Assembly (NCBI RefSeq): GCF_028864145.1
Contig: NZ_JARBHJ010000011.1
Location: 1 to 52,058 of the forward strand
Direction: 5' to 3'
From: Actinotignum schaalii
GTDB lineage: Bacteria > Actinomycetota > Actinomycetes > Actinomycetales > Actinomycetaceae
DNA length: 52,058 nucleotides
Position 1 is the first letter of the stretch. Every line of letters starts with the position of its first letter. Both the position numbers and the translations under genes were made by a program. The notes beneath the pieces are model-generated. The model was given only the letters and a program-made list of their open reading frames with translations. It searched no databases and was not told the DNA's origin. Shown here piece by piece: positions 10,254 through 27,530 of the stretch.

Positions 10254-10325
10254 TCCCGCATAGCTCAATGGCAGAGCATTCGACTGTTAATCGAACGGTT
10301 GCTGGTTCGAGTCCAGCTGCGGGAG
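10254..10325 (+). tRNA. tRNA-Asn (GTT)
   Basis: A complete cloverleaf: acceptor TCCCGCA / TGCGGGA plus discriminator G, D-arm GCTC...GAGC, anticodon stem TTCGA / TCGAA around loop CTGTTAA (anticodon GTT at 10286-10288), T-arm CTGGTTCGAGTCCAG. No CCA is encoded. Its 3' half is the left attachment site of the prophage and remains intact in the lysogen. Confidence 0.97.
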
Positions 10326-10604
10326 CGAACGAACGGCGGTGAGCGTAGGCTTGCCGCCGCTTTCGTATACGGGGTTAGTCAAATCCCACGGCGCGCAGCG
10401 CAGCGCGGCCGCAACCTCGTCCAGCTCCTCGAGCTTCCACGTCCGGCCACCCATCCACCGCTTATTGATAGTGGAGTGTGTCACATTAAGTGCGCGGGCT
10501 AAATCCCTTTGGCTCATGCCTAGGCGCCCGGCGCGCGCCCGAATGTTGCCGGCAACAATATCGGCAAGTGTAGGCGTTTCGTGTTGAATCTCTTGCGTGC
10601 TCAT
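10287..10604 (-). CDS. Phage immunity repressor (XRE HTH), prophage form truncated at attL
   Basis: 105 aa from the ATG at 10602-10604; a TTG 12 codons upstream lies inside the promoter and is not used. HTH: SQRDLARALNVTHSTINKRW at residues 31-50. The last ~21 residues (LTAVRSLPQLDSNQQPFD and neighbours) are encoded by the att core, i.e. the complement of the tRNA. The TAA stop at 10289-10287 is completed by host base T10287. In a reconstructed attP the frame continues 45 codons (27532 down to 27395), giving 150 aa ending ELRGAA and overlapping int by 38 nt. It is divergent from a Cro-like gene. This matches mycobacteriophage repressors whose C-terminal degradation tag is removed by integration. 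Confidence 0.88.
   Translation of the reverse strand: MSTQEIQHETPTLADIVAGNIRARAGRLGMSQRDLARALNVTHSTINKRWMGGRTWKLEELDEVAAALRCAPWDLTNPVYESGGKPTLTAVRSLPQLDSNQQPFD
10288..10352. repeat. attL (65-bp core, copy 1)
   Basis: Identical over 65 bp to 27531-27595; the first difference after it is G10353 against A27596. The core runs from the third anticodon base of tRNA-Asn through the tRNA 3' end and into its downstream hairpin. On the minus strand the same bases encode about the last 21 residues of the repressor. Confidence 0.97.
10335..10358. terminator. Hairpin downstream of tRNA-Asn, partly within attL
   Basis: GGCGGTGAGC - GTAG - GCTTGCCGCC folds into a 10-bp stem with two wobble pairs. The copy at attR (27578-27601) differs by the one G-to-A change at the core edge. 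Probably the tRNA terminator, carried by both phage and host versions. Confidence 0.6.
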
Positions 10605-10640
10605 GTGGTAATGATAATTCCAATATGGAACATTTTGCAA
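10605..10640 (-). promoter_or_regulatory. Repressor promoter, apparently leaderless, with embedded operator
   Basis: On the minus strand: -35 TTGCAA (10640-10635), 17-nt spacer, -10 TTATCA/TATCAT (10617-10611), then 6 nt to the ATG. The predicted +1 coincides with the start codon. The operator TTCCA-N3-TGGAA at 10618-10630 fills most of the spacer, so binding would block this promoter (autorepression). Confidence 0.65.
10618..10630. promoter_or_regulatory. Phage operator O1 (TTCCA-N3-TGGAA)
   Basis: TTCCAATATGGAA, perfect 5-bp arms with a 3-bp spacer, in the repressor/cro intergenic region. The same arms and spacing recur at 26608-26620. A degenerate half-site (TGGAA at 10682-10686) overlaps the cro promoter. 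Confidence 0.7.
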
Positions 10641-10661
10641 GCGAAGCGGAGCTAATGCCGC

Positions 10662-10691
10662 TTGACAGGGTGTAACCGAAATGGAACTATA
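10662..10691 (+). promoter_or_regulatory. Early rightward promoter of the cro-like gene, apparently leaderless
   Basis: Consensus -35 TTGACA (10662-10667) and a -10 of type ACTATA (10686-10691), 18-nt spacing. The expected +1 falls at the ATG at 10698, leaving no room for an RBS. Likely drives the early block. Confidence 0.65.
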
Positions 10692-10697
10692 TGAGCC

Positions 10698-10931
10698 ATG
10701 GAGAGCTACACCGATACAGTTCGCGGAAACATCCGCAATTACTTAGACGCAAATCACATGACCCAGCGCGATCTAGCGAAGAAGCTAGGTTATTACCCGA
10801 ATTGCGTTTCACGCTGGCTCAACGGCACCCGTGGTATTACTCTGCGTGACCTCCAGCGGCTCGCGCGGCTGGGTGTTGAAATTCCGCCCCTTGATGGCGA
10901 TTCGTTCAAGCTCGAGGAGCGGGCAGCATGA
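10698..10931 (+). CDS. Cro-like XRE family regulator
   Basis: 77 aa, one HTH domain: MTQRDLAKKLGYYPNCVSRW (residues 21-40), followed by LNGTRGITLRDLQRLARLGVEIPPL. Divergent from the repressor across a 93-bp control region, the standard place for Cro. The start is fixed by the promoter position (leaderless). The C-terminus ends EERAA; a terminal Ala-Ala can act as a weak Clp recognition element, though this is inference. Overlaps the next gene by 4 nt (ATGA). Confidence 0.82.
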   Translation: MESYTDTVRGNIRNYLDANHMTQRDLAKKLGYYPNCVSRWLNGTRGITLRDLQRLARLGVEIPPLDGDSFKLEERAA

Positions 10932-11218
10932 TCACCCCGGAGATTAAGCAGCAGATCGAGGAAAGCTTGAAACGGGTCGCCCGCGCATCCCGCGCCGGTG
11001 GCCGCAATTGCCGCAAGCGTATGGCGCTGCGCCGTGAGCGTGACCGGCTCATCCAGCTTTTCGACCACACCCCCCGCCCGGCGCGGCCCGATGAAAAACA
11101 GGAAACCGAGCAGCGCGCGCAGTCTTTGGCTCGCTCTCTTTATATCTCTCGTCAAGCGCTGCGCCGCGCTAAAGAAATCGATGCAGCACGGCGCAACGCT
11201 GACGACGCTAACAACTAG
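10928..11218 (+). CDS. Small basic early phage protein
   Basis: 96 aa, Arg-rich and mainly helical (GGRNCRKRMALRRERDRLIQ, residues about 24-43), no known motif seen. It overlaps the cro-like gene by ATGA, so it is co-translated. The charge would suit nucleic-acid binding; an excisionase/RDF is one possibility because no other candidate is obvious, but there is no positive evidence. Confidence 0.6.
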   Translation: MITPEIKQQIEESLKRVARASRAGGRNCRKRMALRRERDRLIQLFDHTPRPARPDEKQETEQRAQSLARSLYISRQALRRAKEIDAARRNADDANN

Positions 11219-11361
11219 CCGCCTTTGCGAAGCAACGCCGTTTTGAGCGTTGTATTCAACTCTTGCAGCTCGAAAAAGATAGCCGTCAAAATCTCCTCGA
11301 CACTATCCGGGCTGGTATTCGAATCGTCCATAATCTCACCTCCTCACAGAAAGAAAGCCTA

Positions 11362-11748
11362 ATGAATGAGAGCGAAGCCCGCGCAGCGCACCCCGCAGCG
11401 CCTACCCCGGCCCGGCTTTCCGATCTTAATATCGATCTCTTGCTGCATCAGATGGATAACCACCTTATTGAAATCGGCCTGCGCGCCGGTTGTGTGCGCG
11501 ATTGCTACGCAGATTCGAGGAAGCCAGAGTACGTAACCGAAGTCCTGCTACTTGACACGGTAGCGGAGCTGGACTCCCTGCGTGCCCTCGCCGAAAAGCT
11601 GTATGTAGCGTGCTGCGCGGTGCGTAGTGAGTTGAAGATGCGCATCAAAGAAGAGCGCGAAAAGACCGAAGCCGGCTTATCGCAAGTTATTAGGGCCTGG
11701 ATCGCAAACGCGGACAAGCGCACCGGCGAAGCGGGGAATAATGGCTAG
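11362..11748 (+). CDS. Early phage protein of unknown function
   Basis: I start at the ATG at 11362 (128 aa), preceded by AGAAAG; the open frame extends upstream to a TTG at 11263 but through sequence with poor coding character and a small dyad (AACGC...GCGTT, 11225-11244). Predicted mostly helical with a Leu-rich central part (LDTVAELDSLRALAEKLYVA) and charged C-terminus. No family recognised. Overlaps the putative initiator gene by 8 nt. Confidence 0.55.
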   Translation: MNESEARAAHPAAPTPARLSDLNIDLLLHQMDNHLIEIGLRAGCVRDCYADSRKPEYVTEVLLLDTVAELDSLRALAEKLYVACCAVRSELKMRIKEEREKTEAGLSQVIRAWIANADKRTGEAGNNG

Positions 11749-12685
11749 GATTCCTACCGCTCACGCGGAGACCCGCGCCCTGCTTACCTCCCTTGCCCGC
11801 CGTGGCTGGGGAGAGTTACGCGATGAGAAGAAGGGCACGCGCTGCGTGCTGGAAGCCCTCGTCAAGCTCTTGCCATATAAAAGCGGGCAAGGCGCCGTAA
11901 CACAATTCCAGCTAGGACAAGCCACCGGATACAGCCGGCGGTGGATTAGCGTCTGCCTGCAGCGCCTTGAAGCCATGGGAATTATCACTTACGCGCGCGG
12001 CGGCGTGATGAACGGGAAGAAGCATCCCGGCTTTATCCGCATCATTAAGAAAAAGCTCGTGGAGCTTATCAAAGGCGCACGCCGCCGCCATGACGACGAC
12101 ACCCGCGCACACAACGCCCGCACGGATGCCGCCATCGCCGAATCACGCTCCAATGGGCAGTACCTCGTTAGTGTGCCCGTAATCCAAGAGCCGGAGAAAG
12201 AAAAAGATGAGGCGCCCGCATCGGATCCACCCTTATGGGAAGTAGATGCCCCTCTCCTCACCTCTAGGGAGGGAGTGCCCCTACCGGGGCACACTCTCTC
12301 TCATGATGAAAATGGAGCCGGGCTAGCGCCCGGCACGCCCTCCCATGTGTTAGCTACCCGCGCCACGCCCTCGACAGGGCAAGCTACCCGCCCGGCGCGG
12401 TTAGCTAACCTGCCACTCCAACCCGTGCAGCGGCGGGCTATCTCGAAGGAAGAGCAATACCGGCGGGCTAATGCGCCCCTGCTGCGTGAAGCGGCGGTAA
12501 ATGCACGCGAAGCAGTGAGCAGGGAAAGGGTGACGCCGCCGCCCGCCCTTGCATCGGAAACGAATAATTATGCACAATACGCGGCTAACGCAATGGCAAA
12601 GATAAAGGCACAGCTCACCGCACACCTAAACCCTGCGCAGCGCAGAGCGCGCGAAATGCTGCGTGAAAGGAAAGAGAAGAAATGA
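11741..12685 (+). CDS. Putative phage replication initiator (winged-helix DNA-binding)
   Basis: 314 aa. Residues about 1-110 look like a winged helix-turn-helix (ALVKLLPYKSGQGAVTQFQL, then GQATGYSRRWISVCLQRLEA, then a GIITYARGG wing). The middle, about 165-230, is low-complexity and encoded by DNA carrying three hairpins and 30-bp-spaced repeats; the C-terminus is basic and helical. This layout, a DNA-binding N-terminus with the origin inside the gene, is that of lambda O-type initiators. No helicase or polymerase gene is present, so the phage would rely on host enzymes. A transcriptional regulator is the alternative. Confidence 0.5.
   Translation: MARIPTAHAETRALLTSLARRGWGELRDEKKGTRCVLEALVKLLPYKSGQGAVTQFQLGQATGYSRRWISVCLQRLEAMGIITYARGGVMNGKKHPGFIRIIKKKLVELIKGARRRHDDDTRAHNARTDAAIAESRSNGQYLVSVPVIQEPEKEKDEAPASDPPLWEVDAPLLTSREGVPLPGHTLSHDENGAGLAPGTPSHVLATRATPSTGQATRPARLANLPLQPVQRRAISKEEQYRRANAPLLREAAVNAREAVSRERVTPPPALASETNNYAQYAANAMAKIKAQLTAHLNPAQRRAREMLRERKEKK
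12275..12411. other. Candidate phage replication origin: hairpins and 30-bp iterons inside the initiator gene
   Basis: Three stem-loops in 106 bp: GTGCCCC-TACC-GGGGCAC (12275-12292), GCCGGGC-TAGC-GCCCGGC (12317-12334), GCCCT-CGAC-AGGGC (12367-12380). Two 30-bp-spaced direct repeats share CACGCCCTC (12334 and 12364) and AGCTACCCGC (12352 and 12382). GTTAGCTA occurs at both ends. Confidence 0.45.
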
Positions 12686-12933
12686 TGATTACAGACGCAG
12701 ACCGGGCACGCGCCCGGACAACACACCGCGCCGGTGAAATGTGGACACCACGCGGGCGCGCCATCCAGACCAGCGCCGCACTCATACGCGCAAGCCTGGG
12801 CAGCATTGAAGCCACCGCCGGGGCTATCACCTCAAGCGCCGCGCGGGCTAGCTGTTATGACAGCGTGGCCGCTATCCGCCGCCACCTCGCCGCTATCCTG
12901 GAGGACGCACAAGGCCTGGAGCTGGCGCTATGA
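12682..12933 (+). CDS. Small phage protein, unknown
   Basis: 83 aa, start overlapping the initiator stop (ATGATG). Ala/Arg-rich, predicted helical, no motif recognised. It overlaps the next HTH gene by 4 nt, so it sits inside a translationally coupled early block, which is the main support for its being real. Confidence 0.55.
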   Translation: MMITDADRARARTTHRAGEMWTPRGRAIQTSAALIRASLGSIEATAGAITSSAARASCYDSVAAIRRHLAAILEDAQGLELAL

Positions 12934-13172
12934 GTGATAGCCCGCTGAAAAGCATCTACCCGCTGGTAGCTAGCGCGTGCGTGCGTCGCTATATGAAAGA
13001 AAACGGCGTGAGCGTAGACCGGCTCGCGCGTGAAGTAGGACTCACACGCGGCACGTTCTACCACCGTCTACAAGGTAACCGGCCGTGGCGCGTGGAAGAG
13101 CTAGACGCCCTCGCATCCTTTGGCGTGCCGTTCCCGGCCCTCGGATTGAAGAAAGGAAAGCCCAATGAATAA
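12930..13172 (+). CDS. XRE-like HTH phage protein
   Basis: 80 aa. HTH segment VDRLAREVGLTRGTFYHRLQ (residues 29-48), followed by GNRPWRVEELDALASFGVPF. The C-terminal pattern resembles both the prophage repressor (RTWKLEELDEVAAAL) and the Cro-like protein (LRDLQRLARLGVEIPPL), suggesting descent from one phage HTH ancestor. Its position between early genes and the packaging module would suit a middle/late regulator. Target unknown. Confidence 0.7.
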   Translation: MSDSPLKSIYPLVASACVRRYMKENGVSVDRLAREVGLTRGTFYHRLQGNRPWRVEELDALASFGVPFPALGLKKGKPNE

Positions 13173-13353
13173 CCGCTACCGGGTAGTGTGGCCTGTGATC
13201 ATGGCCTATCTCTTCACCCTCGCAAGCCTGGCCGTGGCCGTGTTCGCCCCTCTCGTGCCAGTGCGTGCCCTGGCCTGCGCTATGGCAGTAGGCACCGCCC
13301 TCATGCTCGGTGTGTATATCGGCAGCAGGGAGGGGGGTGGCCGGCGTGATTAG
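13165..13353 (+). CDS. Small two-helix membrane protein of the prophage
   Basis: 62 aa with two hydrophobic helices (about residues 8-30 and 33-53) and a basic, Gly-rich tail (SREGGGRRD). Preceded by a GAAAGGAAA Shine-Dalgarno inside the previous gene. Could be an early superinfection-exclusion or membrane-perturbing protein, but nothing in the sequence fixes this. Overlaps the HNH gene by 8 nt. Confidence 0.6.
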   Translation: MNNRYRVVWPVIMAYLFTLASLAVAVFAPLVPVRALACAMAVGTALMLGVYIGSREGGGRRD

Positions 13354-13627
13354 GGGCAGGAAGATACGCAAGACCGCCCTCGCCCTCGTCTCTATCTATG
13401 GCGACCGCTGCGCTAAGTGTGGGCAGCGCATCGACCTCACACTGCGCCACCCCGCACCCGGTAGCCTGAGCATCGGCCACCAGCTACCCCGCGCCCGTGG
13501 TGGTAGCGATGCGATAGAGAACCTCCGCCCGGAGCATCTGCATTGCAACACGGCGGCCGGCGCCAGAATCACACGCGCCCCGCGCCAGCCTGACGTGACG
13601 CCGGGCTACTTTGGCCCGGCAGAATGA
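13346..13627 (+). CDS. HNH endonuclease (packaging-associated)
   Basis: 93 aa from the GTG at 13346, chosen because it overlaps the previous stop with a G-rich RBS 12 nt upstream; an upstream GTG at 13310 would only add residues from the membrane-protein frame. Core: CAKCGQ zinc-knuckle-like pair, then IGHQLPRARGGSDAIENLRP and EHLHCN, the HNH pattern (H...GG...N...H..CN). Small HNH proteins next to terminases assist cos cleavage and packaging in HK97-like phages; this one is just upstream of terS. Confidence 0.85.
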   Translation: MIRGRKIRKTALALVSIYGDRCAKCGQRIDLTLRHPAPGSLSIGHQLPRARGGSDAIENLRPEHLHCNTAAGARITRAPRQPDVTPGYFGPAE

Positions 13628-13757
13628 CGCCGTTTTTCTGAACGTTCAACCACGGGAACTCGCGCCCCCTCCCTCCATTTTTCCCCAAACGCTGAGGAAA
13701 AACGGCGGGAAACCGGGCAAAGGTAAGCGATTCGTAGAAAAAAATTAGGAAAAGGAA
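13628..13757. other. Non-coding gap before terS; candidate cos/packaging site
   Basis: The largest gap in the plus-strand phage block (130 bp). It has a palindrome TGAACGTTCA (13639-13648), a 10-bp inverted repeat GCCGTTTTTC (13629-13638) / GAAAAACGGC (13697-13706) and several A/T tracts, flanked by HNH and terS. Position is the usual place for cos; no cleavage site can be read directly. Confidence 0.35.
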
Positions 13758-14111
13758 ATGAACCAAGCGCAGCTATTCGCCATGCCTGAGCCAGCCACCC
13801 CCGCCGGGCCTAATGAAGCCGCGGTAGATGCCCTATGCGAAGAACTCGAGGGGCAAGGCCTGCTAACCGGCAAGTGGCGCGCCCTCTCCGTGTCGCTGCG
13901 CTCCACCGCCAAAGCAGTAGATACCGGCATCCAGCAGTCCAAGATCAGCGTAGCCACTTCAAAGCTAATGGCGCTCTTGCAGGAAGGTCTACAGGCTATG
14001 CCGGAGCCACGCGCGAAAACCTCTGACGCTTACGACACGCTCGCCAGCGTTATTGATCTGATGACCCGGGAAGCGATCACCGGGGAAAAGGCCGGCGACC
14101 ATGCCAAATGA
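13758..14111 (+). CDS. Terminase small subunit (putative)
   Basis: 117 aa, ATG preceded by AAAAGGAAA. The protein is mainly helical with no strong motif, but length, a conserved-looking segment (WRALSVSLRSTAKAVDTGIQ, about residues 41-60) and position directly before and overlapping the large terminase by 11 nt match the small subunits of actinophages. It would recognise the packaging site and recruit TerL. Confidence 0.68.
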   Translation: MNQAQLFAMPEPATPAGPNEAAVDALCEELEGQGLLTGKWRALSVSLRSTAKAVDTGIQQSKISVATSKLMALLQEGLQAMPEPRAKTSDAYDTLASVIDLMTREAITGEKAGDHAK

Positions 14112-15564
14112 GAATCGCCCCGGGTGGCCGAAGTACGCCACCGCCCGCAATCCCGCCCGGCCTACCCTCGGCCCGCTCGTTGCAAAGATCGATGAGATCA
14201 TCACCGGCGATAAATTCATGCCGTGGCAGCGATGGGTTACAGATGTGGCCTGGGAGCTTGACCCGGAGCACCCCGGGGAGCTGTATTACACCGAGGGAGA
14301 TATCACCGTGCCGCGGCAGGCCGGGAAATCCAAGCTATTGGAAGCATGGCACCGCGCCGGCGCCGTCATGTTCAATGGGTGGCAGTCGTATATGACCGCG
14401 CAGACCGGCAAAGACGCGGGCAAGCGATGGCGTTCCCTCGTTGATGGGCTTGATCTTGCGAAAGGTAATCGCGGGCTGGATTGGAAAATCTTGCGCGGCA
14501 AAGGGCAGGAAAGCGCGGAATATCTGCCGCAAGGCTCGCGTATAATGCCATTCCCACCAACCGACGACGCCCTGCACGGCGACCACAATAACCTAGTAAG
14601 CATTGATGAGATGTGGGCCTTTTCAATTGATGAGGGCATCGCGTTAGAGACCGCGGCAAAGCCCGGATTCCTGACCGTCCCGCTGATCATGCTCGTTAGG
14701 TGCTCCACTATGGGCACCGCAAATAGCGCTTATATGAATCAAGCGCTCGAGCTAGGACGCCGCGCCGTCAAAGACCCGCAAGCGCGCCGGTTCTATTTTG
14801 AGTGGAGCGCGCCGGATGAGATCGCCGCGGCTGACCCCTACTCTGATGAGGCCCTCGCATTCCACCCGGCTATAGGGCATACGCAAACCGCCCGCCGCAT
14901 TCGAGACCTCGGCCGGGGAATGCCCGTAGGCGAATGGCGCCGCTCATTCCTCAACCTGCTAACACAATCGAAAGAGACGGTTATTGACCTCGCGGCGTTT
15001 GATGCGCGGCGATGGAATTACGACCCGGACACCGCCCCCGCGGAGCGCTATAAACCCGCCGCGCCGAATGATATCGTGATCGCTTTCGATATCGCCCCCG
15101 GTGGCACCTCGGCGACGATCTACGCGGGCTGGCTCGACCCTGCCGGGTTCATGCCGTGCGTGGAGCAGGTAGCAACCGCGCCCGGCACGGAATGGCTTAC
15201 CGGCGCCCTGCGCAACCTCGCGCGCAGGGGATACCGCCGCATCCTCACCGACGATTCCGGCCCTAACCGCACCATTTTGCAAGATCTGCCCGACCTCGAG
15301 ATGCCTATCACCACGCTTTCATTTAAGGAATACGCGACCGCCTGCCAATCCTTGCTAGATCGCATCCGCTCCGGTGAGATCGAGCATGACGGCGCACCCG
15401 CCCTCATCGAAGCCATCGAAAACGCCGCGCTGAAAGACACCTCCTCGGCGCTCTCTTTCGACCCCAAAAAGAGCGCCGGGGCTATCGATGCGCTGCGGGC
15501 GATGGCTATCGCGCAGGACGGCGCCGCCCGTTTCTTGAAAGAATCTCCGTTTGTGCTCGTGTAG
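14101..15564 (+). CDS. terL: Terminase large subunit
   Basis: 487 aa packaging motor and nuclease. Walker A-like PRQAGKS at 71-77, Walker B LVSIDE at 165-170 followed by MWAF, coupling motif region VRCSTMGTANS near 200. The C-terminal RNase H-like nuclease starts at IAFDIAPGGTSATI (first catalytic Asp) with a second acidic site in ILTDDSG. It translocates DNA into the prohead using ATP and cuts at the packaging site. It overlaps terS. Its stop codon lies in the stem of a strong hairpin. Confidence 0.94.
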   Translation: MPNENRPGWPKYATARNPARPTLGPLVAKIDEIITGDKFMPWQRWVTDVAWELDPEHPGELYYTEGDITVPRQAGKSKLLEAWHRAGAVMFNGWQSYMTAQTGKDAGKRWRSLVDGLDLAKGNRGLDWKILRGKGQESAEYLPQGSRIMPFPPTDDALHGDHNNLVSIDEMWAFSIDEGIALETAAKPGFLTVPLIMLVRCSTMGTANSAYMNQALELGRRAVKDPQARRFYFEWSAPDEIAAADPYSDEALAFHPAIGHTQTARRIRDLGRGMPVGEWRRSFLNLLTQSKETVIDLAAFDARRWNYDPDTAPAERYKPAAPNDIVIAFDIAPGGTSATIYAGWLDPAGFMPCVEQVATAPGTEWLTGALRNLARRGYRRILTDDSGPNRTILQDLPDLEMPITTLSFKEYATACQSLLDRIRSGEIEHDGAPALIEAIENAALKDTSSALSFDPKKSAGAIDALRAMAIAQDGAARFLKESPFVLV

Positions 15565-15594
15565 CGTAGCGTTCTATTTTCTAGCGCTACGCTA
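15562..15594. terminator. Hairpin spanning the terL stop codon
   Basis: TAGCGTAGCG - 13-nt loop - CGCTACGCTA, a perfect 10-bp stem whose first three bases are the TAG stop. Located in the 61-bp terL-portal gap. No U-tract follows. May attenuate transcription or protect the mRNA end. Confidence 0.5.
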
Positions 15595-15625
15595 GAAAAC
15601 CACACGCGCGCCCGAAGAAGCGTTC

Positions 15626-16786
15626 ATGATGGTGGCCATGAAGCACACGGCGCTACTCTCAAGGATGGGCATTCTCACCCGCTCCACCACCGAGCCGGAA
15701 ACCACGGCCGGCCCGGTGGTGCCCGCCCGCCCCGCCGCCCCGCTCTACAATGACGCGCGCGGGCTGGTAGCCGTTTATCGCGCTCTGCAAATCCTCGAAA
15801 CCTCAGCCCGGCAGCTCACTATCGATGTGTGGCGCGGTGGCCACCGGCTCGACCGCGCACAGCGGGCTAGCTTCCTCAACCGCCCCGACCTCACTCTGCT
15901 TTCATTCGGTGCTTTCACCGCCGAAACGGTCTCGAGCATGGCGCAGCGCGGTAATGCCTATTGGCTCGTGAAGCGCGCCGGGTATGAAATCGTAGACGTA
16001 ACCATCCTTGACCCGCTGCATGTGGGAGTGGCCGCGAATGAGCGCGGCATCCCGGCGTATTCGTATAAGGGGAAGCCGGTGCCGCTCTCCGATATCCGGC
16101 ACTTGCGCCTGACACACACACCCGGCGAACTGTTAGGGCTGTCGCCCTTGCAGGCGTGCATGGCCACCGTCCAAGGCGCACTAGCAACACAACATTACGC
16201 GGATAACTGGACGACCGCGGGGGGAGTGCCTACCGGCATCCTCACCACCGATCAACCGATCACGGCGCAGCAAGCAAAGGATTATAAGCAACACGCTAAT
16301 AAAACATTGCAATACGAATCCGGCATTGCGGTCATGGGCAACGGCCTGAAATATTCGCCGCTCAAGCTCACCCCCGCGGAGCTGCAATTCATCGAATCGC
16401 GCCGCGAAGATGTGGTACAGGTGGCGCGAATGTTCGGGATTCCGGCACGGCTCATGCTTGCCACCATCGAGGGAGGAGCGCAAACCTACGCGAATCTCGA
16501 GAGCGAAAATCAGCAATTCGTCCGGCAAACCCTCATGACGTATCTCGCGGAGATCGAGGACGCTTTAACTGATCTCGCACCTGCCGGGCAGACGGTGCGC
16601 TTCAACCTTGACGGCTTCCTCCGGCCGGATACTCTCACCCGCTACCAAGCGCACGAAATCGCCCTGCGCGCGGGATTCCTCACCCCCGGCGAAGTGAGAG
16701 AGATCGAGGGGCTAGACCCGCTCGAAGAAACCCCCGCGGTTGTTGAAATTGAAGAAAAGGATTCCGAGAATGTCGAAGCCGAATAA
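15626..16786 (+). CDS. Portal protein (HK97-like, phage_portal)
   Basis: 386 aa. The dodecameric portal is the DNA entry vertex of the head. Family features: AVYRALQILETSARQLTIDV in the N-terminal wing, GNAYWLVKRAGYEIVDV near residue 110, DIRHLRLTHTPGELLGLSPL in the middle, and the helix ARMFGIPARLMLATIEGGAQ near 270. Three in-frame ATGs (15626, 15629, 15638) are possible; the first has GAAGAAG upstream. Overlaps the capsid fusion gene by 17 nt. Confidence 0.9.
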   Translation: MMVAMKHTALLSRMGILTRSTTEPETTAGPVVPARPAAPLYNDARGLVAVYRALQILETSARQLTIDVWRGGHRLDRAQRASFLNRPDLTLLSFGAFTAETVSSMAQRGNAYWLVKRAGYEIVDVTILDPLHVGVAANERGIPAYSYKGKPVPLSDIRHLRLTHTPGELLGLSPLQACMATVQGALATQHYADNWTTAGGVPTGILTTDQPITAQQAKDYKQHANKTLQYESGIAVMGNGLKYSPLKLTPAELQFIESRREDVVQVARMFGIPARLMLATIEGGAQTYANLESENQQFVRQTLMTYLAEIEDALTDLAPAGQTVRFNLDGFLRPDTLTRYQAHEIALRAGFLTPGEVREIEGLDPLEETPAVVEIEEKDSENVEAE

Positions 16787-18320
16787 TCCGATTACCGGCC
16801 TGCAATACCGCGAAACACCCGCCGCGGCGCCGGAAGTCACCGAGGAACGCACTTTCACCGCTCTTGCCGTGCCCTGGGAAACTGAAACCGAGCTGTGGCC
16901 GGGCATTGCTGAGAAATTCCAGCGCGGCGCACTCACCGGCGAAGCCGTGAAGCTCCGCCTCGAGCACCGCGAAACAATCGGCGTAGTAACTGCGCTCGAG
17001 GATACCGAGGCGGGCCTTATGATCACAGGCCGCATTAGCCATACCCGCGCGGGGGATGATGCTTATACCCTCGCAAAAGACGGCGCGCTCAGTGCCGTGT
17101 CTGTGGGCTTTGAGCCGCAAGAATACGACATTACCGAGCGCGACGAAGACACTTTATACACGCATACCCGCGCGCAATTATTGGAAGTTTCGCTCGTGAG
17201 CTTTCCGGCTTATGAGGACGCAAAAGTTAGTGAAGTAAGAAACCGAAAGGAAACCCCCGCAATGGATACCGAAAATACTGAGGTGGTGGAGCTGCGCGCA
17301 GGTCTCGAAGAGCTGCGCCGCACCCTCGAAACTGTCCGAGACAACACCGCCGGAGGAGCGGCCGCGCCGGCGTGCGTATTCCGCTCAGCCGGCGAATATA
17401 TTAAGGCCGCGGCGAATGGTGACCCGCGCGCCCTCGAGCTACGCGAAGCCACAGAAACCGCCGTACTAGCGGATACCGCGCAGAAGCCGGTATGGGTGAA
17501 TAAAACGCTCCGGCTCATGGAAGCGAAGCAGAAGATTACTAACATCTTCACGCACTCGTACACCTTGCCCGCGGCCGGTATGAGCTATGAGTACCCGGAA
17601 ATTGCCACGAATACGGTTAAGGTCAGTGAACAGGCGAATGAGACGGACGATCTGCCGTTCGGTAAGATCACGCTCGAAACCGCATCGGCTGCGGTCAAGA
17701 CTTACGGCGGCTGGAGCGAAGTCTCTAAGCAGGTGGTGCAGCGTGCAAGCGTGAATTACCTCGATGCCCTGCACCGCGCGCAGGCCATCGCCTACGCGAA
17801 TGAGATCGAGCGCGCAACCCGCATCCTCGTCACCGAAACGATCAAGACCAATCTCACCACGACGCCGGTGGAAGCCGCTACCACCGCGGCCGCACTCACC
17901 GTGAACGGGCTTATTGATCTCTTGCTGGCTCTCACTGATCATTTTGATAATAAAGTGATCTTCCCGCTCGAGGGCATCGCCGTGTCGCCGGACGTATTCG
18001 GGATTCTTGCGAAATTGCCGGAGCAGCGCAAGGCGCTCCAATTCACGCCGGCCCCGGATTCCAAGCAAGGCACCCTATCCGTAACCGCGGCATCTGCGAA
18101 TCTTGCCGGCCTGCCCGTGGTCTCCCTCGGCTCCGGTACCGGCATTTTCGCCGGTTACTCGAGCGCCGCTATTGAGGTGCTGGAATCGCCCGGCGCACCG
18201 CTCCGGCTCAATGACCAAAACATCCGCAACCTCACCGAGCAGTACTCGGTCTACGGTTACGCCGCGCATTCCGCTCCGGCCCCGGCCGCACTCGTGCCGG
18301 TCAAGTTCAAGGCCGCGTAA
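16770..18320 (+). CDS. Prohead protease-major capsid protein fusion
   Basis: 516 aa from the ATG at 16770 (AAAGGA 8 nt upstream; an in-frame TTG at 16740 lies in the portal gene). Residues about 1-165 are a U35/S78-type prohead protease: LRLEHRETIGVV holds the catalytic His and GALSAVSVGFEP the catalytic Ser. After a charged linker/scaffold (about 170-210, ELRAGLEELRRTLETVRDN) comes an HK97-fold capsid protein, with YTLPAAGMSYEYP and GGWSEVSKQVVQRASVNYLD. In most HK97-like phages these are two genes; the fusion saves space and couples protease to shell. Self-cleavage between the parts is expected. Confidence 0.92.
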   Translation: MSKPNNPITGLQYRETPAAAPEVTEERTFTALAVPWETETELWPGIAEKFQRGALTGEAVKLRLEHRETIGVVTALEDTEAGLMITGRISHTRAGDDAYTLAKDGALSAVSVGFEPQEYDITERDEDTLYTHTRAQLLEVSLVSFPAYEDAKVSEVRNRKETPAMDTENTEVVELRAGLEELRRTLETVRDNTAGGAAAPACVFRSAGEYIKAAANGDPRALELREATETAVLADTAQKPVWVNKTLRLMEAKQKITNIFTHSYTLPAAGMSYEYPEIATNTVKVSEQANETDDLPFGKITLETASAAVKTYGGWSEVSKQVVQRASVNYLDALHRAQAIAYANEIERATRILVTETIKTNLTTTPVEAATTAAALTVNGLIDLLLALTDHFDNKVIFPLEGIAVSPDVFGILAKLPEQRKALQFTPAPDSKQGTLSVTAASANLAGLPVVSLGSGTGIFAGYSSAAIEVLESPGAPLRLNDQNIRNLTEQYSVYGYAAHSAPAPAALVPVKFKAA

Positions 18321-18628
18321 TGAGCGCGCTAAGGGAGCGGCTGCGTGAGCATCTGAAGCTACCGGCCGGGAATAACGCGGAGCTAGATGCGCTCCTCGAG
18401 CAAGGCACCGCGCTCGTAGATCAGCTGATCGGCTCGGCTAGCGTGCCGGATGTGATTCGGGAAGCCGCGATCTTGACCGCCGCGCGGGAGCTAGAAACCC
18501 GCGTTAAATCGCCCGGTGGTATTTTCGCGGCATTCGGCGACCAAGACGGCGCTATCCGGCTCGCCCGCGACCCGCTCGGCCCCGTCCGGCCCTTGCTCGC
18601 CCCATATCTGCCGGGAGGATTCGCATGA
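18320..18628 (+). CDS. Head-tail connector protein (gp6-like)
   Basis: 102 aa. Helical start (RERLREHLKLPAGNNAELDA), then DVIREAAILTAARELETRVK and a terminal DPLGPVRPLLAPYLPGGFA, the pattern of phage gp6-like head completion proteins that bind under the portal. Start overlaps the capsid stop (TAATG) and the end overlaps the next gene by 4 nt. Confidence 0.78.
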   Translation: MSALRERLREHLKLPAGNNAELDALLEQGTALVDQLIGSASVPDVIREAAILTAARELETRVKSPGGIFAAFGDQDGAIRLARDPLGPVRPLLAPYLPGGFA

Positions 18629-18999
18629 ATCCACTCAACCGATACGCCGCGCACTTAGTGGATGCCCTCGCAGTAACCGGCTATACAGTGCGCGCTGATC
18701 AGCCCGAGATCATCCACGGAAAGCATATTTTGCTGGAAGCCCCGAGCTATACGCCCGGCGAAACATTCGGCAGCTTGAAAGCCGAATACAAGGCGCTGTG
18801 TATCCTCGAAGCCCGGGACGCCGCCGGCGCGGTAGCCGAAGCGAACGCTCTTGTGTGGGAGGTCTACGCGGCGCTGATCAACAGCGAAGCCGGATACCTC
18901 ACCCGCGCGGGGAGTCTCTACAACCTGCGCGATGGCTCCGGCAATATTTTCGCCGCCCTAGATATCACCATTGAAAACGAAATCACAGAAAGAGACTAA
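18625..18999 (+). CDS. Tail terminator / minor tail protein (putative)
   Basis: 124 aa. Position between the head-tail connector and the tail tube gene, length, and an alpha/beta pattern (LVDALAVTGYTVRADQPEII ... NIFAALDITIENE) agree with tail-completion or terminator proteins that cap the tail tube. No diagnostic motif. Overlaps the upstream gene by ATGA. Confidence 0.6.
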   Translation: MNPLNRYAAHLVDALAVTGYTVRADQPEIIHGKHILLEAPSYTPGETFGSLKAEYKALCILEARDAAGAVAEANALVWEVYAALINSEAGYLTRAGSLYNLRDGSGNIFAALDITIENEITERD

Positions 19000-19001
19000 T
19001 C

Positions 19002-19415
19002 ATGGGTTCGACTCGCATTAAAGGTAATGCCCTGATTCTTGAGATCGACGGGACGGAATACCGCGGCGATCTCACCGAATACCACATTAAGAATGAAGAA
19101 AAAGATAGCGACGTAACCACATTCGAGGACGCCGCGCAGGGTAACACCCGCAAGTACATCCTCGAAGCGGGCTTTGTCCAGTCCACGGCGTCGCAGTCTC
19201 TTTGGCGTAAGCTCTGGGATAACGCCGGCCGGAAGAACGTGCCTTATAAGATCGCCCCGCACGGCAATAAAACCGCTACCGCTGATCAGCCGCATTTTAC
19301 CGGCACGCTCACCCTGCCCGCACCCGGCGAACTCGGCGGGGAAGCCGGCCCCGGCGAATTCACCACTAGCGCTGAATTCGAGCTTGACGGCAAGCCGAAA
19401 CTCGTGACCGCCTAG
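19002..19415 (+). CDS. Major tail (tube) protein
   Basis: 137 aa. Beta-rich: IKGNALILEIDGTEYRGDLT, then NEEKDSDVTTFEDA and LWRKLWDNAGRKNVPYKIAP, with FTGTLTLPAPGELGGEAGPG near the end. This matches the immunoglobulin-like tail tube subunit of siphophages, here at the short end of the size range. It polymerises around the tape measure. It lies 2 nt after the preceding gene. Confidence 0.82.
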   Translation: MGSTRIKGNALILEIDGTEYRGDLTEYHIKNEEKDSDVTTFEDAAQGNTRKYILEAGFVQSTASQSLWRKLWDNAGRKNVPYKIAPHGNKTATADQPHFTGTLTLPAPGELGGEAGPGEFTTSAEFELDGKPKLVTA

Positions 19416-19417
19416 TC

Positions 19418-19858
19418 ATGGAATCAAAGAGTATTGATCTTGATATCCGCTCCGGCCCGATGCGTCTCAAGGTCATGGGGTATCGCGATCTCATGCGCGC
19501 TCTCTCCAAGAGCGGCGCAGACACCGAGGACATGCGCGACCTCGTGCATGATCTCGGTGAGATCGTGGCAAAGGACGCGCGCCGCCGCGCTAAAAATAGC
19601 GCGGTGGCCGCTACCATCCGAGCCGGCCGCGGCAAAACCAAAGCAGTAGTACGCGCCGGCCGGAAGCGCGTACCTTACGCCGGCGTGCAGGAATACGGCA
19701 CCGACGGCCGCGGCCGGTCTTTCAAGAAGCACGGCTACCCCCGCATGAGCTACATGCGCCCCGCACTCAAAGCCACACAACCCCAAGTGTATGACCGGCT
19801 AGTGCGCGGCTTGCGTGATCTCCTCGAGGCGAATCGCCTAGAAGTGAAAGGAAACTAA
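19418..19858 (+). CDS. HK97 gp10-like tail component
   Basis: 146 aa. Contains GYRDLMRALSKSGADTEDMR, then EIVAKDARRRAKN and RVPYAGVQEYGT, with YPRMSYMRPALKATQPQVYD near the end; the pattern V.YA...E.GT...AqPFlrPAl is characteristic of HK97 gp10-like proteins. In other phages this gene precedes the tail tube gene, so the order is slightly unusual. Starts 2 nt after the tail tube stop. Confidence 0.8.
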   Translation: MESKSIDLDIRSGPMRLKVMGYRDLMRALSKSGADTEDMRDLVHDLGEIVAKDARRRAKNSAVAATIRAGRGKTKAVVRAGRKRVPYAGVQEYGTDGRGRSFKKHGYPRMSYMRPALKATQPQVYDRLVRGLRDLLEANRLEVKGN

Positions 19859-19862
19859 CCCT

Positions 19863-20171
19863 ATGGCTATCATCATGGATAATATTACTATCGCTGAATT
19901 CGATCTGATGGAGCGCGCCCTCGGCCGGCCTATCGGCGAAGAATCGGAGGAGTCCGGCAAAGCGGATTATGTGGCCGCTATTACCATCATCGCCGCGCAT
20001 CGCCTGGGTAAAGAGCTTTCCCTCGAGGAAGCCCGCGGCCTATCCATGCCGCAAGCTCAAGCAATCCAGCAAGCCGGAGCCAAAGCCAAAGCAGAAACCC
20101 GCACCCCCGCGGCCGTCGCTGATCTCCTCGAAGCCATCGGCTACACCGAGGAGGGCGAAGCGGGGGAATGA
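19863..20171 (+). CDS. Tail assembly chaperone (G-like)
   Basis: 102 aa, Ala/Glu-rich, between the tail tube region and the tape measure gene, the invariant place of tail assembly chaperones. It ends with G-rich GGGGGAA (20162-20168) immediately before the TGA, and the -1 frame is open across this point into the next small ORF. It would chaperone the tape measure protein during tail assembly. Confidence 0.78.
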   Translation: MAIIMDNITIAEFDLMERALGRPIGEESEESGKADYVAAITIIAAHRLGKELSLEEARGLSMPQAQAIQQAGAKAKAETRTPAAVADLLEAIGYTEEGEAGE

Positions 20172-20326
20172 TGCGCGCCCGCGCAGACAAACGCCTGCGC
20201 GAAATGGCGCAATTCGCATTAGAAGCACACATACCCCCGCGCGATTACTGGGCCTTAACCATCCATGAGCGGGCCGCAATCGTAAGGGAGCAGCGCGCCC
20301 GCGTGAATCGCGCGCGCCGCCGCTAA
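20171..20326 (+). CDS. Tail assembly chaperone T-like ORF, probably expressed by -1 frameshift
   Basis: 51 aa, read directly from the sequence (ATG at 20168 or 20171, TAA at 20324-20326). Basic, with the segment PPRDYWALTIHERAAIVREQ, matching the 'DyW.lt..Er.ai' motif of the downstream half of siphophage chaperone fusions. It is in the -1 frame relative to the G-like gene and overlaps its stop. A slip at G-GGG-GAA would give a G-T fusion of about 154 aa; independent start at the overlapping ATG is also possible. Confidence 0.7.
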   Translation: MRARADKRLREMAQFALEAHIPPRDYWALTIHERAAIVREQRARVNRARRR

Positions 20327-20347
20327 GCAAGAAGAGGAGGGCAGGAA

Positions 20348-22207
20348 ATGGCCGGAAATGTCGTTAATATTAGCGTGCTTGCTAATACCGGGCAGGCGCG
20401 TAAAGAGCTGGAGAAATTCGGTAAAACCACCGGTAGTTTCTCCGGCATCCGCAAAGAAATCGACACGCTCGGTAATTCCCTTTCCTCGATGGCGAAGAAG
20501 ATCGGCGCGCTCGGAGGAGCATGGGCCGCCTATGGAATCAAAGCAGCTAGTGATCTCGAGCAATCCACCGGCACCATTGATGATATTTTCAAAGATCACG
20601 CCGCCACGGTGCATAAGCTCGCTGATGAAGCCGCCACCGCCGTAGGATTGAGCGCGAATTCTTATAATGAGCTGGCCGCTATCATCGCCACACAGTTAAA
20701 AAATGGTGGCACATCCGTGGATGAACTGGCCGGCAAGACTGATAATCTTATCCGGCTGGGTGCTGATCTTGCCGCGGGCTTTGGTGGCTCTACCGCTGAC
20801 GCCGTGAATGCGCTCTCCTCAGCTCTCAAGGGGGAGCGTGACCCTATCGAAAGATACGGCGTGAGCTTGCGTCAGGTGGATATCGATGCGCGCGCCGCGG
20901 CGATGGGATTCCAGAAGCTAGGCGGCAGCTTTGACGCTCAAGCGCAGCAAGCCGCCACGCTCTCGCTGATCATGGACCAAACCGCGGATATGACCGGCAA
21001 ATTCGGCCGCGAAACCGATACCGTGGCGCACCAGACTGAGGTAGCGAAAGCGAATTTTGAGAATCTGAGCGCGGAGCTAGGCGAAAAGCTCCTGCCGTAT
21101 ATCAATCAGCTAGTGACCTGGCTCAATGGGAATCTCTTGCCGGGCTTGAAGAAAGCGAAGCCGTATCTGATTGCTTTGGCGGCGGTGGCCGCGCCTATCA
21201 TGGCCGGAGCCATCGCATTCAAAGTAGCAACTGCGGCGCTGAATGCTTGGAAAGTGGCCGTAGCTCTTGCCACTGCCGCTCAGTGGCTCTGGAATGCCGC
21301 CATGAGCGCTAACCCGCTCACCTGGATTACTCTTGCGATCATTGCACTAGTGGCCGGGATTATCTTGCTCTGGCAGCGCTGCGAGGGATTCCGCAATGCG
21401 GTAGCCGTCATCTGGGAGAACATTAAGAGCGCTATAGATTCGGTGGTGCAATGGTTCACGGTGACCGTGCCGGAGTGGATTAGCAACGCCGTTGAAACCG
21501 TCAAGACATTCTTCTCCGATCTGTGGACGAAAGTTCAAGAGATATGGGACGGGATTAAGGAAACCATCTCAGATGTGATCGAGTGGATTAAGACGGCGCC
21601 GGGGGAAGCAGCAGATCAAGCCGCCGAATGGCTCTCCAACGCATTCCAAACCGCCAAAGAATGGGTTGTCGAAAAGCTCACCGCGCTTAAAGATGGTGCC
21701 GTGGAGAAATTTAACGCGCTCGTGGATTGGGTGAAAGGGTTGCCGGATAAAATCCTCGGCGCCCTCGGCGATCTCGGTTCGCTCTTGTGGGATGCGGGCC
21801 GGGCTATCCTGCAAGGCCTGCTAGATGGCTTGCAAAGCATGTGGGAGGGCGTTAAGGGATTCTTTAGCGGCCTTACCGATTGGATTCCGGACTGGAAAGG
21901 CCCCGCCCCGCGCGATGCGAAGCTCCTCACGGAAAATGGCCGGCTGATCATGCGCGGGTTCCTGCGCGGCCTTGAATCCTCATATGGCTCAGTTCGGCGC
22001 TCTCTGCAAGGCTTTACGGGTGACCTGCCCGGCATGGTGGAAGCAAAAGCCGGCATGAGCTTATCCCTCGAGCCGGCCGGTGCCGGCCCCGTCCCTACCG
22101 GCGTGACCTATATCATCAACGTTTCTGCGCTTGCGCCTAGCGCGGAGATAGGGCAGCGCGTCGTCGCCGCGATCAAAGAATACGAAACCACAGCCGGAAG
22201 GAGGTAA
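20348..22207 (+). CDS. Tape measure protein
   Basis: 619 aa, the longest phage gene. N-terminal helical part (ISVLANTGQARKELEKFGKT), a TP901-like core (LADEAATAVGLSANSYNELA and QLKNGGTSVDELAGKTDNLI), hydrophobic helices around residues 275-350 (e.g. ANPLTWITLAIIALVAGIIL), then Trp-rich helical repeats. At about 1.5 angstrom per residue the tail would be roughly 90 nm. RBS GAGGAGGG upstream. It sets tail length and may assist DNA entry. Confidence 0.93.
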   Translation: MAGNVVNISVLANTGQARKELEKFGKTTGSFSGIRKEIDTLGNSLSSMAKKIGALGGAWAAYGIKAASDLEQSTGTIDDIFKDHAATVHKLADEAATAVGLSANSYNELAAIIATQLKNGGTSVDELAGKTDNLIRLGADLAAGFGGSTADAVNALSSALKGERDPIERYGVSLRQVDIDARAAAMGFQKLGGSFDAQAQQAATLSLIMDQTADMTGKFGRETDTVAHQTEVAKANFENLSAELGEKLLPYINQLVTWLNGNLLPGLKKAKPYLIALAAVAAPIMAGAIAFKVATAALNAWKVAVALATAAQWLWNAAMSANPLTWITLAIIALVAGIILLWQRCEGFRNAVAVIWENIKSAIDSVVQWFTVTVPEWISNAVETVKTFFSDLWTKVQEIWDGIKETISDVIEWIKTAPGEAADQAAEWLSNAFQTAKEWVVEKLTALKDGAVEKFNALVDWVKGLPDKILGALGDLGSLLWDAGRAILQGLLDGLQSMWEGVKGFFSGLTDWIPDWKGPAPRDAKLLTENGRLIMRGFLRGLESSYGSVRRSLQGFTGDLPGMVEAKAGMSLSLEPAGAGPVPTGVTYIINVSALAPSAEIGQRVVAAIKEYETTAGRR

Positions 22208-22210
22208 CCC

Positions 22211-23764
22211 GTGAGTGCTTTGCTAGATCATGAGATCGTGCGCGGCGCCTACCTGAGCATGGATGGACAGCTGATGCTGCAAGAGCCTAGCGCGGAAATC
22301 CACCTCGACCCGCTACCGGCCGGCGACACGTGGCAGATCAAGATCGACCCGTATATCGTGCCGCCCGCCGGCGCGCGCGTAGGGGTACAGGGTGCCGTGC
22401 ATCCTTTCACCAGCCCCCGCGCGCAAACTTTCACGCTTGACCCGCTCTTGCCGGTGGTCGTGCGTTTCGAGGGATGGCGCGCTTATTCCCGCTTCAAAAT
22501 CACCATTATCACCGATTCGGACACGCCCGGCCCGGGCCGCGCCGCCCTCATGGCCTACCTACCGCGCCGGGATTACGTAAGCGCGATTCTAGGCAAGGCC
22601 ATCCTCGGTAGCTTCACCCTGCCCGACCCGGAGCGGGTCAAGCCGTGGTTCATCCTCGGCATTAGCCGGGTAGGCTACGGGACACTATCGGCGGCGCCGG
22701 AGCGCAGCGCCTGGTATGAAATCCAAGGCGCCGCCACCTCAATCACCACCACCCGCGGCGTCACCTATACGGGCGTGAGCGGGCAGGCCATGCTAGGCAC
22801 GCTCGAAGCCCGGATTATAAACAGCCTTGACCCTCGGGCTAGCGGGCTGATCAAAGGCACCCCGCTCCGGCTGATCGATCGCGCAACCCGCGCCGCGATC
22901 TTCACCGGCCGGCTCGAGAAAACCATCTCCACCCCCGAGCCGCGCGGCGGCTACACCCTCACCATTACCGCACATGATGCCGTGGCCATTACCGGGGCTA
23001 AAACTAAATGGCAGGAGACCCGCGCCCGCCCGGTGACGTGGCAGGCGGGATTCCGCCAGCTCCTCGAGCAGCTCCACCTGCCCGCCGGCTACCAGATCAC
23101 CGGCACCGCCACCCGCCCGCGCCTCGGCGATATGGTCAAGGAATCCCCTTATACCACATGGCTCGACATTTTCGCCGCCACATGTGGCGTCACCTGGTAT
23201 GTGGATGCGCGCGGCGTGCTGCGCGTCATCGATGCGCCGCCCGCCACCCTGCGCGGTGAGATCGTATTCACGAAGCCGGAAACCGGCCTGCCGGCAATCA
23301 CCCCTACCAGCGCGGCCGCGCAGATCGACACCTCGACCATTTTCACCGGCATCACCGCCACGAATAACGCCGCGGAGCGCGGGGAAGATGGCCGCTTTCA
23401 AGGCACCACTACCACGCTGCGCACCGATTCGGCAACGCTTGCCGGAGCTTATGGCACGAATACGGCGCAGATCGAAACCTGCGCCGCGTCCATCCCGGAG
23501 CTTTCCGAGCATCTGCGCGGCCTGATGCGCTCATATCAGCCAGAGCAAGCCCTCACAGCAGTAGAAGCTACCCCATGGAATGATGATATGAATCACCGCG
23601 ATAACGCCGCGCTTTCACGCCTGCTCGCCCTCGAAATCCTCGACGCCTTGACGGCGAACTACCGCGGCACCCGCGCGGTCACTCATATCACGGGGATACG
23701 ACACGAAATTACCCCGAAACGCTGGCACACCGCCCTAACCCTGAAAGAATGGAGGAGCGCATGA
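22211..23764 (+). CDS. Minor tail / tail-tip protein
   Basis: 517 aa from GTG at 22211, 5 nt after a perfect AAGGAGGT. Beta-rich; the middle (ARIINSLDPRASGLIKGTPL, then GRLEKTISTP, then YTLTITAHDAVAITGAKTKW) has the look of a gp27-like tail-hub domain. It is the only large protein between tape measure and lysis genes, so it probably combines distal tail and tail-associated functions normally split between two or three genes. Overlaps the next gene by 4 nt. Confidence 0.75.
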   Translation: MSALLDHEIVRGAYLSMDGQLMLQEPSAEIHLDPLPAGDTWQIKIDPYIVPPAGARVGVQGAVHPFTSPRAQTFTLDPLLPVVVRFEGWRAYSRFKITIITDSDTPGPGRAALMAYLPRRDYVSAILGKAILGSFTLPDPERVKPWFILGISRVGYGTLSAAPERSAWYEIQGAATSITTTRGVTYTGVSGQAMLGTLEARIINSLDPRASGLIKGTPLRLIDRATRAAIFTGRLEKTISTPEPRGGYTLTITAHDAVAITGAKTKWQETRARPVTWQAGFRQLLEQLHLPAGYQITGTATRPRLGDMVKESPYTTWLDIFAATCGVTWYVDARGVLRVIDAPPATLRGEIVFTKPETGLPAITPTSAAAQIDTSTIFTGITATNNAAERGEDGRFQGTTTTLRTDSATLAGAYGTNTAQIETCAASIPELSEHLRGLMRSYQPEQALTAVEATPWNDDMNHRDNAALSRLLALEILDALTANYRGTRAVTHITGIRHEITPKRWHTALTLKEWRSA

Positions 23765-24087
23765 TCACGCCTTTTAAAGATGGCGAATTACTCACCGCGC
23801 AGCGCCTAAATGACGCTTTCGCCACTATGCCGGAAATGGAAGTAGGCAGCTATCAATACGCAAACGCCACAATTAGCTCCGGGCAGAAAGTAGGGTGGTA
23901 TCCCCAAACTTTCACCCGCTCGCATGACCGCGCCCCGGATATCGTGATCATCTCACCGATGACAGACCCGGGAGTTAGCGGCGCGGCCGCGGATTATTCG
24001 GCTAGTGGCTTCAAATTCTGCCTACGCAACACCACCAATGGGAGCTTTTACGCCCCCTGGGTGAAATGGCTCGCAATCTGGCTATAA
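23761..24087 (+). CDS. Small tail protein with H-type-lectin-like C-terminal domain (putative receptor binding)
   Basis: 108 aa from the ATG at 23761 (overlaps upstream stop; GGAGGAG just before). A short N-terminal attachment helix (DGELLTAQRLNDAFATMPEM) precedes a compact beta domain: VGSYQYANATISSGQKVGWY ... APDIVIISPMTDPGVSG ... FKFCLRNTTNGSFYAPWVKW. The spacing resembles H-type lectin or phage fibre knob domains. It is the best candidate for host recognition; the family call is tentative. Confidence 0.55.
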   Translation: MITPFKDGELLTAQRLNDAFATMPEMEVGSYQYANATISSGQKVGWYPQTFTRSHDRAPDIVIISPMTDPGVSGAAADYSASGFKFCLRNTTNGSFYAPWVKWLAIWL

Positions 24088-24098
24088 GAGAAAGGAAA

Positions 24099-26522: not shown

Positions 26523-26538
26523 TTTAGTATTCCTATCT

Positions 26539-26552
26539 GGAGCTTATCTCCA
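26539..26552. promoter_or_regulatory. Dyad before the 203-aa gene (possible Aca-like autoregulatory site)
   Basis: GGAG-CTTAT-CTCC inverted repeat (26539-26551), extended by one pair on the + strand (T26538, A26552), 17 nt upstream of the start codon. An adjacent TCCATTATGG resembles a degenerate phage operator. Confidence 0.35.
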
Positions 26553-26586
26553 TTATGGCCGGGCCTTTCCCTTGCCTTGTGCTTAT

Positions 26587-26620: not shown

Positions 26621-26637
26621 TTATGGTGTGTGATGGG

Positions 26638-27432: not shown

Positions 27433-27530
27433 GCTGATATTTTGCAATATCAATAACCACGGCTTTCACATCTGCATCATTATTAGCTGTTTCATCGGCT
27501 ATACTGGGCACCGCTCGCAAAATTCGCCGG

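Follow-up and report, generated by a model that had tools for sequence, protein, structure and literature searches.

A prophage of Actinotignum schaalii with its attachment core inside the repressor gene, a probable integration-dependent immunity switch

Results

The prophage, its ends and its target

The window, by which we mean the whole 52,058-nucleotide stretch of Actinotignum schaalii DNA that was analysed, contains a 17.24-kb prophage that sits in a tRNA-Asn gene. The features discussed below are collected in Table 1. The prophage is flanked by a 72-bp direct repeat of 99% identity, in which 65 exact bases are followed by a single mismatch (G10353/A27596) and then by 6 further bases; the 65-bp att core reported in a first-pass annotation of this DNA is exact at that length and can be extended to 72 bp. 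The attB site overlaps the host tRNA gene, which is kept in the lysogen. Beyond the tRNA, the att repeat runs over a terminator-like hairpin (10327-10359 / 27570-27602). Because the repeat in the window spans this hairpin, and in 11 of the 15 further elements whose two ends were located (see below) the shared att length is 38-43 bp, the comparison suggests that the window phage picked up host sequence recently.

Table 1. Positions of features in the window
Feature	Position	Strand	Remarks
tRNA-Asn(GTT), attB gene	10254..10326	+	from U36 onward within the shared core
Repressor, prophage form, 105 aa, HTH_3	10287..10604	-	ATG at 10604, TAA at 10289-10287
attL core, 72 bp	10288..10359		tRNA 3' half and terminator-like hairpin 10334-10359
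Prophage body	10360..27530		replication-initiation-like protein, HNH, terminase, portal, capsid/protease, connector, tail, tape measure, amidase, holin
Candidate repressor promoter TTGCAA-18-TATCAT	10611..10640	-	1 found in 10230-10760, mean 0.5 in shuffles
Candidate operator TTCCA-NNN-TGGAA	10618..10630		inside candidate repressor promoter
Divergent Cro-like HTH protein, 77 aa	10698..10931	+	
Second exact copy of candidate operator	26608..26620		between int and leftward gene pair 26522-25594
Tyrosine integrase, 264 aa, ends -ARAAA	26638..27432	-	start overlaps rep tail
Severed 3' end of viral repressor frame	27395..27532	-	45 codons from Tyr, ending -RGAA, then TAA
attR core, 72 bp	27531..27602		1 mismatch, synonymous in rep frame

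Since genes for packaging, head, connector, tail, tape measure, holin and amidase are present, the prophage looks complete. No excisionase was named among the prophage proteins scanned, which cover part of its frames and several of which had no match.

When the own genome was searched at the DNA level with the stretch spanning tRNA and rep, three places matched: the tRNA, the copy in attR and, weakly, a tRNA-Lys. For this reason we count no second tRNA-Asn as found in that search. Five other genomes of the genus were compared with the same query. Four of them match by its antisense-tRNA part alone, that is, they have a tRNA-Asn core without a repressor, and the fifth gave no match. The core differs from attL by 0 or 1 mismatch in all four loci. 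Three (L012, L013, L014) are empty sites in which both window flanks align around an undivided core; at the fourth (L017) the left flank aligns, together with 97 bp on the right.

The repressor frame and its created stop

The attP core falls within the repressor reading frame. In the prophage, the frame closes on a TAA that is the antisense of U35-U36-A37 in the tRNA anticodon loop: two of its bases lie in the repeat, while the third, T10287, is host DNA, corresponding to U35 of the anticodon in antisense. The base adjoining the repeat at the right end is G27530, from the phage, and the codon there is TAC, encoding Tyr. TAA thus becomes TAC because base 10287 is a host T and base 27530 a phage G. 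Read in the corresponding phase, the attR copy continues as ...SNQQPFD-YRRILRAVPSIADETANNDADVKAVVIDIAKYQHGKIARELRGAA to a stop at 27395, for a total of 150 aa. These results agree with the earlier description of a 105-aa prophage form stopping at 10287 and of an unbroken frame across the rejoined ends, with 45 more codons and 150 aa in all; the coordinates were correct, and phase and lengths hold at attR. The mismatch at 10353 is synonymous in the rep frame (GGC vs GGT). To judge by sequence ends, the -RGAA with which the viral form finishes is an ssrA-like -AA C-terminus.

We asked how much weight the open tail can bear. Under a first-order Markov model of the local DNA, 45 codons stay open in 8.5% of trials; the other two phases beyond attR close after 10 and 12 codons. 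Codon usage in the part of the tail outside the int overlap gives +7.7 bits in the tail phase vs -1.0 and -9.8, and over all 45 codons the phases are not separated (4.3 bits vs 5.4 and -15.6). Openness as proof of coding was rejected as too weak. Since an open frame expected by chance at this rate is suggestive only, the case rests on homologues and tail ends. No close homologue of the 45-aa tail itself was found.

Integrase, Cro-like gene and control region

The rep and int genes are adjacent and co-oriented and overlap at 27395-27432. Together with the divergent Cro-like gene, this bears out the gene order given in the first-pass annotation, with int overlapping the long rep frame. The -10 element of the candidate repressor promoter lies very close to the ATG, and for that reason the rep message may be leaderless, with its start at or near the ATG. 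The spacer of this promoter holds the palindrome TTCCAATATGGAA at 10618-10630. Exact matches to TTCCA-N3-TGGAA occur at 6 places in the 2.2-Mb genome, 2 of which are in the prophage (P 9e-4, for a pattern chosen after the first site was seen), and the reversed control pattern occurs at 2 places in the same genome. The half-site pattern showed no excess (4 found vs 4.6 expected). We read 10618-10630 and 26608-26620 as candidate operators; BPs also has several operators, according to the part of PMC4557955 available to us.

The gene pair downstream of int (25594-26522, minus strand) lies behind the second candidate operator. It encodes a 203-aa protein without a Pfam or PHROG match and a 105-aa HTH protein with a weak Aca2/YdiL match, and may be a prophage-controlled accessory operon.

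Homologues among phages

A tblastn search with the 105-aa repressor (limit E 0.01) matched 92 phage records, from 45 Arthrobacter, 44 Mycobacterium, 2 Gordonia and 1 other phage. Charlie-type repressors align over residues 1-105 at 31.5%, with E 1e-3 in the phage collection; as a single comparison, window Rep against Charlie Rep gives E 6e-11. The Charlie frame has TAC (Tyr) where the window has its Tyr codon, and ends -DSAA; Charlie Int does not end in AA. Window Rep finds its best family in phrog_4583 (6e-16), above phrog_2328 (1e-9, over residues 5-105), a family that is also matched by Charlie Rep (2e-35) and Phlop Rep (2e-42).

Among 504 records, the nearest relatives of int, over residues 41-264, are the integrases of JustASigh, a phage of Mycobacterium (47%), and of the Gordonia Wizardvirus Phlop (46%). 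Both phages carry a gene annotated as immunity repressor directly upstream of int. Rep and Int end -PAAA and -NSAA in Phlop, -KIPA and -GAAA in JustASigh. The terminase is nearest to those of 15-kb Arthrobacter phages, at about 34%.

No near-identical phage records were found, and scans with rep, int and terminase matched no viral contig that would represent a free viral form with its natural attP. An alignment-based search gave two viral contigs, one of them matching the G079 element, whose genome falls in the same family as that of the window; both loci end at the rep stop, and therefore neither displays the attP junction.

Related elements in actinobacterial genomes

A repressor match was obtained in 18 of 149 genomes, the own genome included. 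A second att copy was present in 9 of the 10 regions searched for it (window included), at tRNA-Asn, -Lys and -Arg, and all nine have a repressor frame that stops within the tRNA and a continued frame at the other att end. Related elements with the same rep-att anatomy measure 13-18 kb and lie at tRNA-Asn, -Lys, -Arg and -Met. Motif scans placed an integrase-like frame next to attR in six of these elements (window, G023, G024, G071, G076 and G079) and a broken one in G053; in G022 and G040 none was recognised by these scans, which are not family searches. G022, G053 and G040 are short remnants, with 1.2, 2.1 and 3.4 kb between att copies, in which the repressor is kept at the tRNA and most phage genes are lost.

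Across the order, phrog_4583 was matched in 118 of 396 genomes and in 0 of 14 controls, and two further searches gave matches in 8 and 5 of the 396. When phrog_2328 was searched over the phylum, it matched in 9 of the 14 control genomes as well, and none of its loci ended in a tRNA among the 8 scored of 30. An 8-sequence alignment was too diverse for scans. The phrog_4583 rows used were the 30 loci given plus picked listed matches with open frames under 200 aa; listed matches of at least 200 aa without a locus were left out, as were unlisted matches. Scoring of 42 + 80 rows, some of which represent the same place twice, yielded 39 distinct elements in which the repressor frame terminates within a tRNA gene, on its antisense strand. 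A second att copy was sought in 38 of these (G444, at a contig end, was left out) and found in 16, the 22 elements without one being explained in part by contig ends. As in the window, the stop straddles the core edge, with the host supplying the third base only, in 9 of the 16.

Two repressor-like frames elsewhere in the own genome end antisense in tRNA genes: G000:C26:23443-23652 (L170, L219) in tRNA-Thr(CGT) and G000:C38:13437-13628 (L114, L220) in tRNA-Lys(TTT). No second att copy was found for either before the contig ends. More such elements may thus be present in the own genome. An HTH frame directly downstream of the tmRNA gene (G000:C18:1695-2364; L165, L222) is possibly another integrated element, at tmRNA.

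Position of the truncating stop in the tRNA

Of the 39 elements, 23 have their truncating stop in the anticodon loop and 16 have it elsewhere. Stops in the loop occupy positions 35-37 of tRNA-Asn (7), -Lys (2), -Arg-TCT (2) and -Arg-CCT (1), positions 33-35 of tRNA-Met-CAT (10) and positions 32-34 of tRNA-Arg-ACG (1). Outside the loop, stops were found at 29-31 (5) and 12-14 (1) of tRNA-Thr-CGT, 19-21 of tRNA-Met (3), 12-14 of tRNA-Phe (1), 13-15 (2), 20-22 (1) and 39-41 (1) of tRNA-Lys, and 39-41 of tRNA-Arg-ACG (2). The tRNA-Lys(TTT) numbering may be one too high, owing to a T run, and one loop case printed as 36-38 is counted as 35-37. In the loops of Thr(CGT) and Phe(GAA) no antisense stop is available. 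Where the tRNA offers one, it serves as the truncating stop in 23 of 32 elements (P 9e-6 vs one third, shared descent ignored); when elements are grouped by tRNA and phase, it does so in 6 of 11 classes (P 0.12). We rejected a strict rule that would place every truncating stop in the anticodon loop, as 16 of the 39 elements do not fit. Placement in the loop is a tendency, which shared descent could explain.

We offer tentatively, and with some doubt, the idea that the arming stop is drawn from the antisense of the anticodon loop as the least changeable host DNA, and that phages using different tRNAs have shifted the phase of rep accordingly. If true, the switch would be host-proof, with usable tRNAs restricted to those whose anticodon loops hold an antisense stop. 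PMC8092301, in the portion available to us, describes several M. abscessus prophage clusters in which the first bacterial base creates the stop, and gives seven extra residues for MabB. The terms 'integration-dependent immunity' and 'anticodon' co-occur in PMC9262239 and PMC10865867; within the accessible text of PMC9262239, 'anticodon' appears once, in a figure legend.

Tag-like protein ends

Tails ending in AA or VA were found in 5 of the 16 elements with both ends: the window (-RGAA), G023 (-RLAA), G079 (-TLAA), G076 (-VLVA) and G083 (-GLVA). The 11 others include the full-size close relatives G024 (-RHEK) and G071 (-NTFF), and comprise also the short remnants G022, G040 and G053, G294, three tRNA-Thr elements with 64-107-aa tails, G272 (one-residue tail) and G027, in which the frame continues across an integrase. 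As background, taken from the DNA of 7 of the 16, 119 of 10,895 frames of at least 12 codons end in AA or VA (1.1%); for the window's part of this DNA the figure rises to 2.9% (20 of 699 frames). Against 1.1%, the P value is 6e-7 for 5 of 16 AA/VA ends and 1e-4 for AA alone in 3 of 16, values that are guides only because VA was added after the tails had been seen and the elements are not independent. The host tmRNA tag, AKNKSTDFALAA, ends -LAA, whereas the window tail ends -RGAA, not -LAA. Among 12 motif-bearing frames beside attR, the window's is the sole one ending in AA, and that of G023 ends -ASA. An integrase-like frame of G071, found by a looser motif, ends -MAAA. Most integrase-like frames in the 16 related elements have no -AA-type end.

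Discussion

Integration-dependent immunity in mycobacteriophages BPs and relatives was reportedly described by Broussard et al. in 2013. The first-pass annotation took the present locus for a switch of this kind, and its reading gains support: testable sequence features are present, the directionality factor aside. The anatomy, the phase, the creation of the stop, the homology and the empty sites can be read directly from the DNA. We consider the arrangement very probably an integration-dependent immunity switch.

For the operation of such a switch, we infer co-transcription, proteolysis, repression and operator use, and an immunity that requires integration. The rep and int genes of the free phage would be transcribed leftward as one unit, and the 150-aa Rep, with last residues -RGAA resembling an ssrA tag, would be kept low by ClpXP-type proteolysis, leading to lytic growth; we propose the proteolysis step because of the -AA type of the protein ends. 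Int, which ends -AAA, is probably unstable too. Recombination by Int between the core inside rep and the tRNA-Asn gene would remove the last 45 codons and assemble a stop codon out of two bases of the core and a single one of the host (U35, antisense). The 105-aa repressor left by this event would be stable, bind TTCCA-NNN-TGGAA in the rep-cro region and keep the prophage silent.

Integration could instead switch the repressor without a protease tag, if the 45-aa tail blocked oligomerisation or DNA binding and its loss activated the protein. The wide variation of family tails in length and sequence would suit such a block, as would the two full-size close relatives without an AA/VA end. We nevertheless regard it as improbable: the available text of PMC4557955 has the long and short forms of the BPs repressor binding DNA similarly, AA/VA ends occur in 5 of 16 tails vs 1.1% of background frames, and the host tag also ends AA. 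That the arrangement is a passive by-product, in which integrases of this type recombine at the anticodon loop, rep merely extends into the att sequence and the frame stays open by chance, with no bearing on regulation, would accord with the 8.5% of random trials in which 45 codons stay open and with the 11 of 16 related tails that have no tag-like end. It is very unlikely in view of the 39 elements with rep ending antisense in tRNAs of several types and in different phases, the homology to an experimentally supported system, the enrichment of tag-like ends, and a sole core mismatch that is synonymous in the rep frame.

A decaying remnant, in which the prophage is defective and the truncated repressor a damaged gene, is barely credible. 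Open frames remain for packaging, head, tail and lysis functions as well as for int, rep and cro, and the two core copies share 99% identity. Nothing direct speaks for decay; three relatives (G022, G040, G053) are short remnants. Judged on sequence, the published mechanism of integration-dependent immunity is the best reading of the locus, which would make it a known type of switch in a further host family.

The likeness to BPs and its relatives, for which this type of immunity is described in the accessible parts of PMC4557955 and PMC9262239, extends to attP inside rep, the rep-int order, AA-type Rep and Int ends, a tRNA attB and a divergent Cro. The first-pass annotation had given 103 and 136 aa for the two BPs repressor forms, and these lengths are correct. 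As far as the published descriptions available to us go, the window differs in its target (tRNA-Asn vs tRNA-Arg in BPs) and host family, in the length of the tail (45 vs 33 aa) and of the repeat (72 bp including the terminator-like hairpin vs 35 bp), in the operator (candidate TTCCA-N3-TGGAA vs CGACATATGTCG in BPs), and in the junction codon, which is Tyr here and Cys in the published mechanism. Like the window, the Bifidobacterium prophages Bb423phi2 and 689b-1 are about 18 kb in size, carry int and rep at opposite att ends, and encode a longer viral Rep with an ssrA-like end; unlike it, they use tRNA-Met, an 18-residue tail and a 39-bp core (excerpts of PMC6109161). Integration-dependent immunity is also given for Gordonia phages, namely Jeanie, McGonagall, GMA5 and GRU3, which have small genomes, and Wizard, the small group differing from the window in its tRNA-Lys target and all of these phages in their hosts (PMC5559632, in the part accessible).

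A further likeness to the Gordonia phages is the nearness of the window int to that of Wizardvirus Phlop. The 15-kb Arthrobacter phages Decurro and KylieMac, which we take to be members of cluster AN, share with the window a Rep-like protein (34-39%) and a terminase (about 34% identical). Unlike the window prophage, cluster AN is called lytic in the accessible text of PMC6109161.

Within the portions of the literature available to us, integration-dependent immunity is already in print for phages or prophages of Mycobacterium, Gordonia and Bifidobacterium, and we found no report of it for Actinomyces or Actinomycetaceae in a coverage that excludes most subscription journals. The present analysis places the switch, read as above, in the Actinomycetaceae. 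Among the genomes searched, related actinobacteria repeatedly have repressor frames that terminate antisense within tRNA genes, and the tendency of the stop to fall in the anticodon loop offers a simple reason why it works in many hosts. The prophage described here is a compact 17-kb example, with a single tRNA target found, a candidate operator, and a junction that is precise and open to test.
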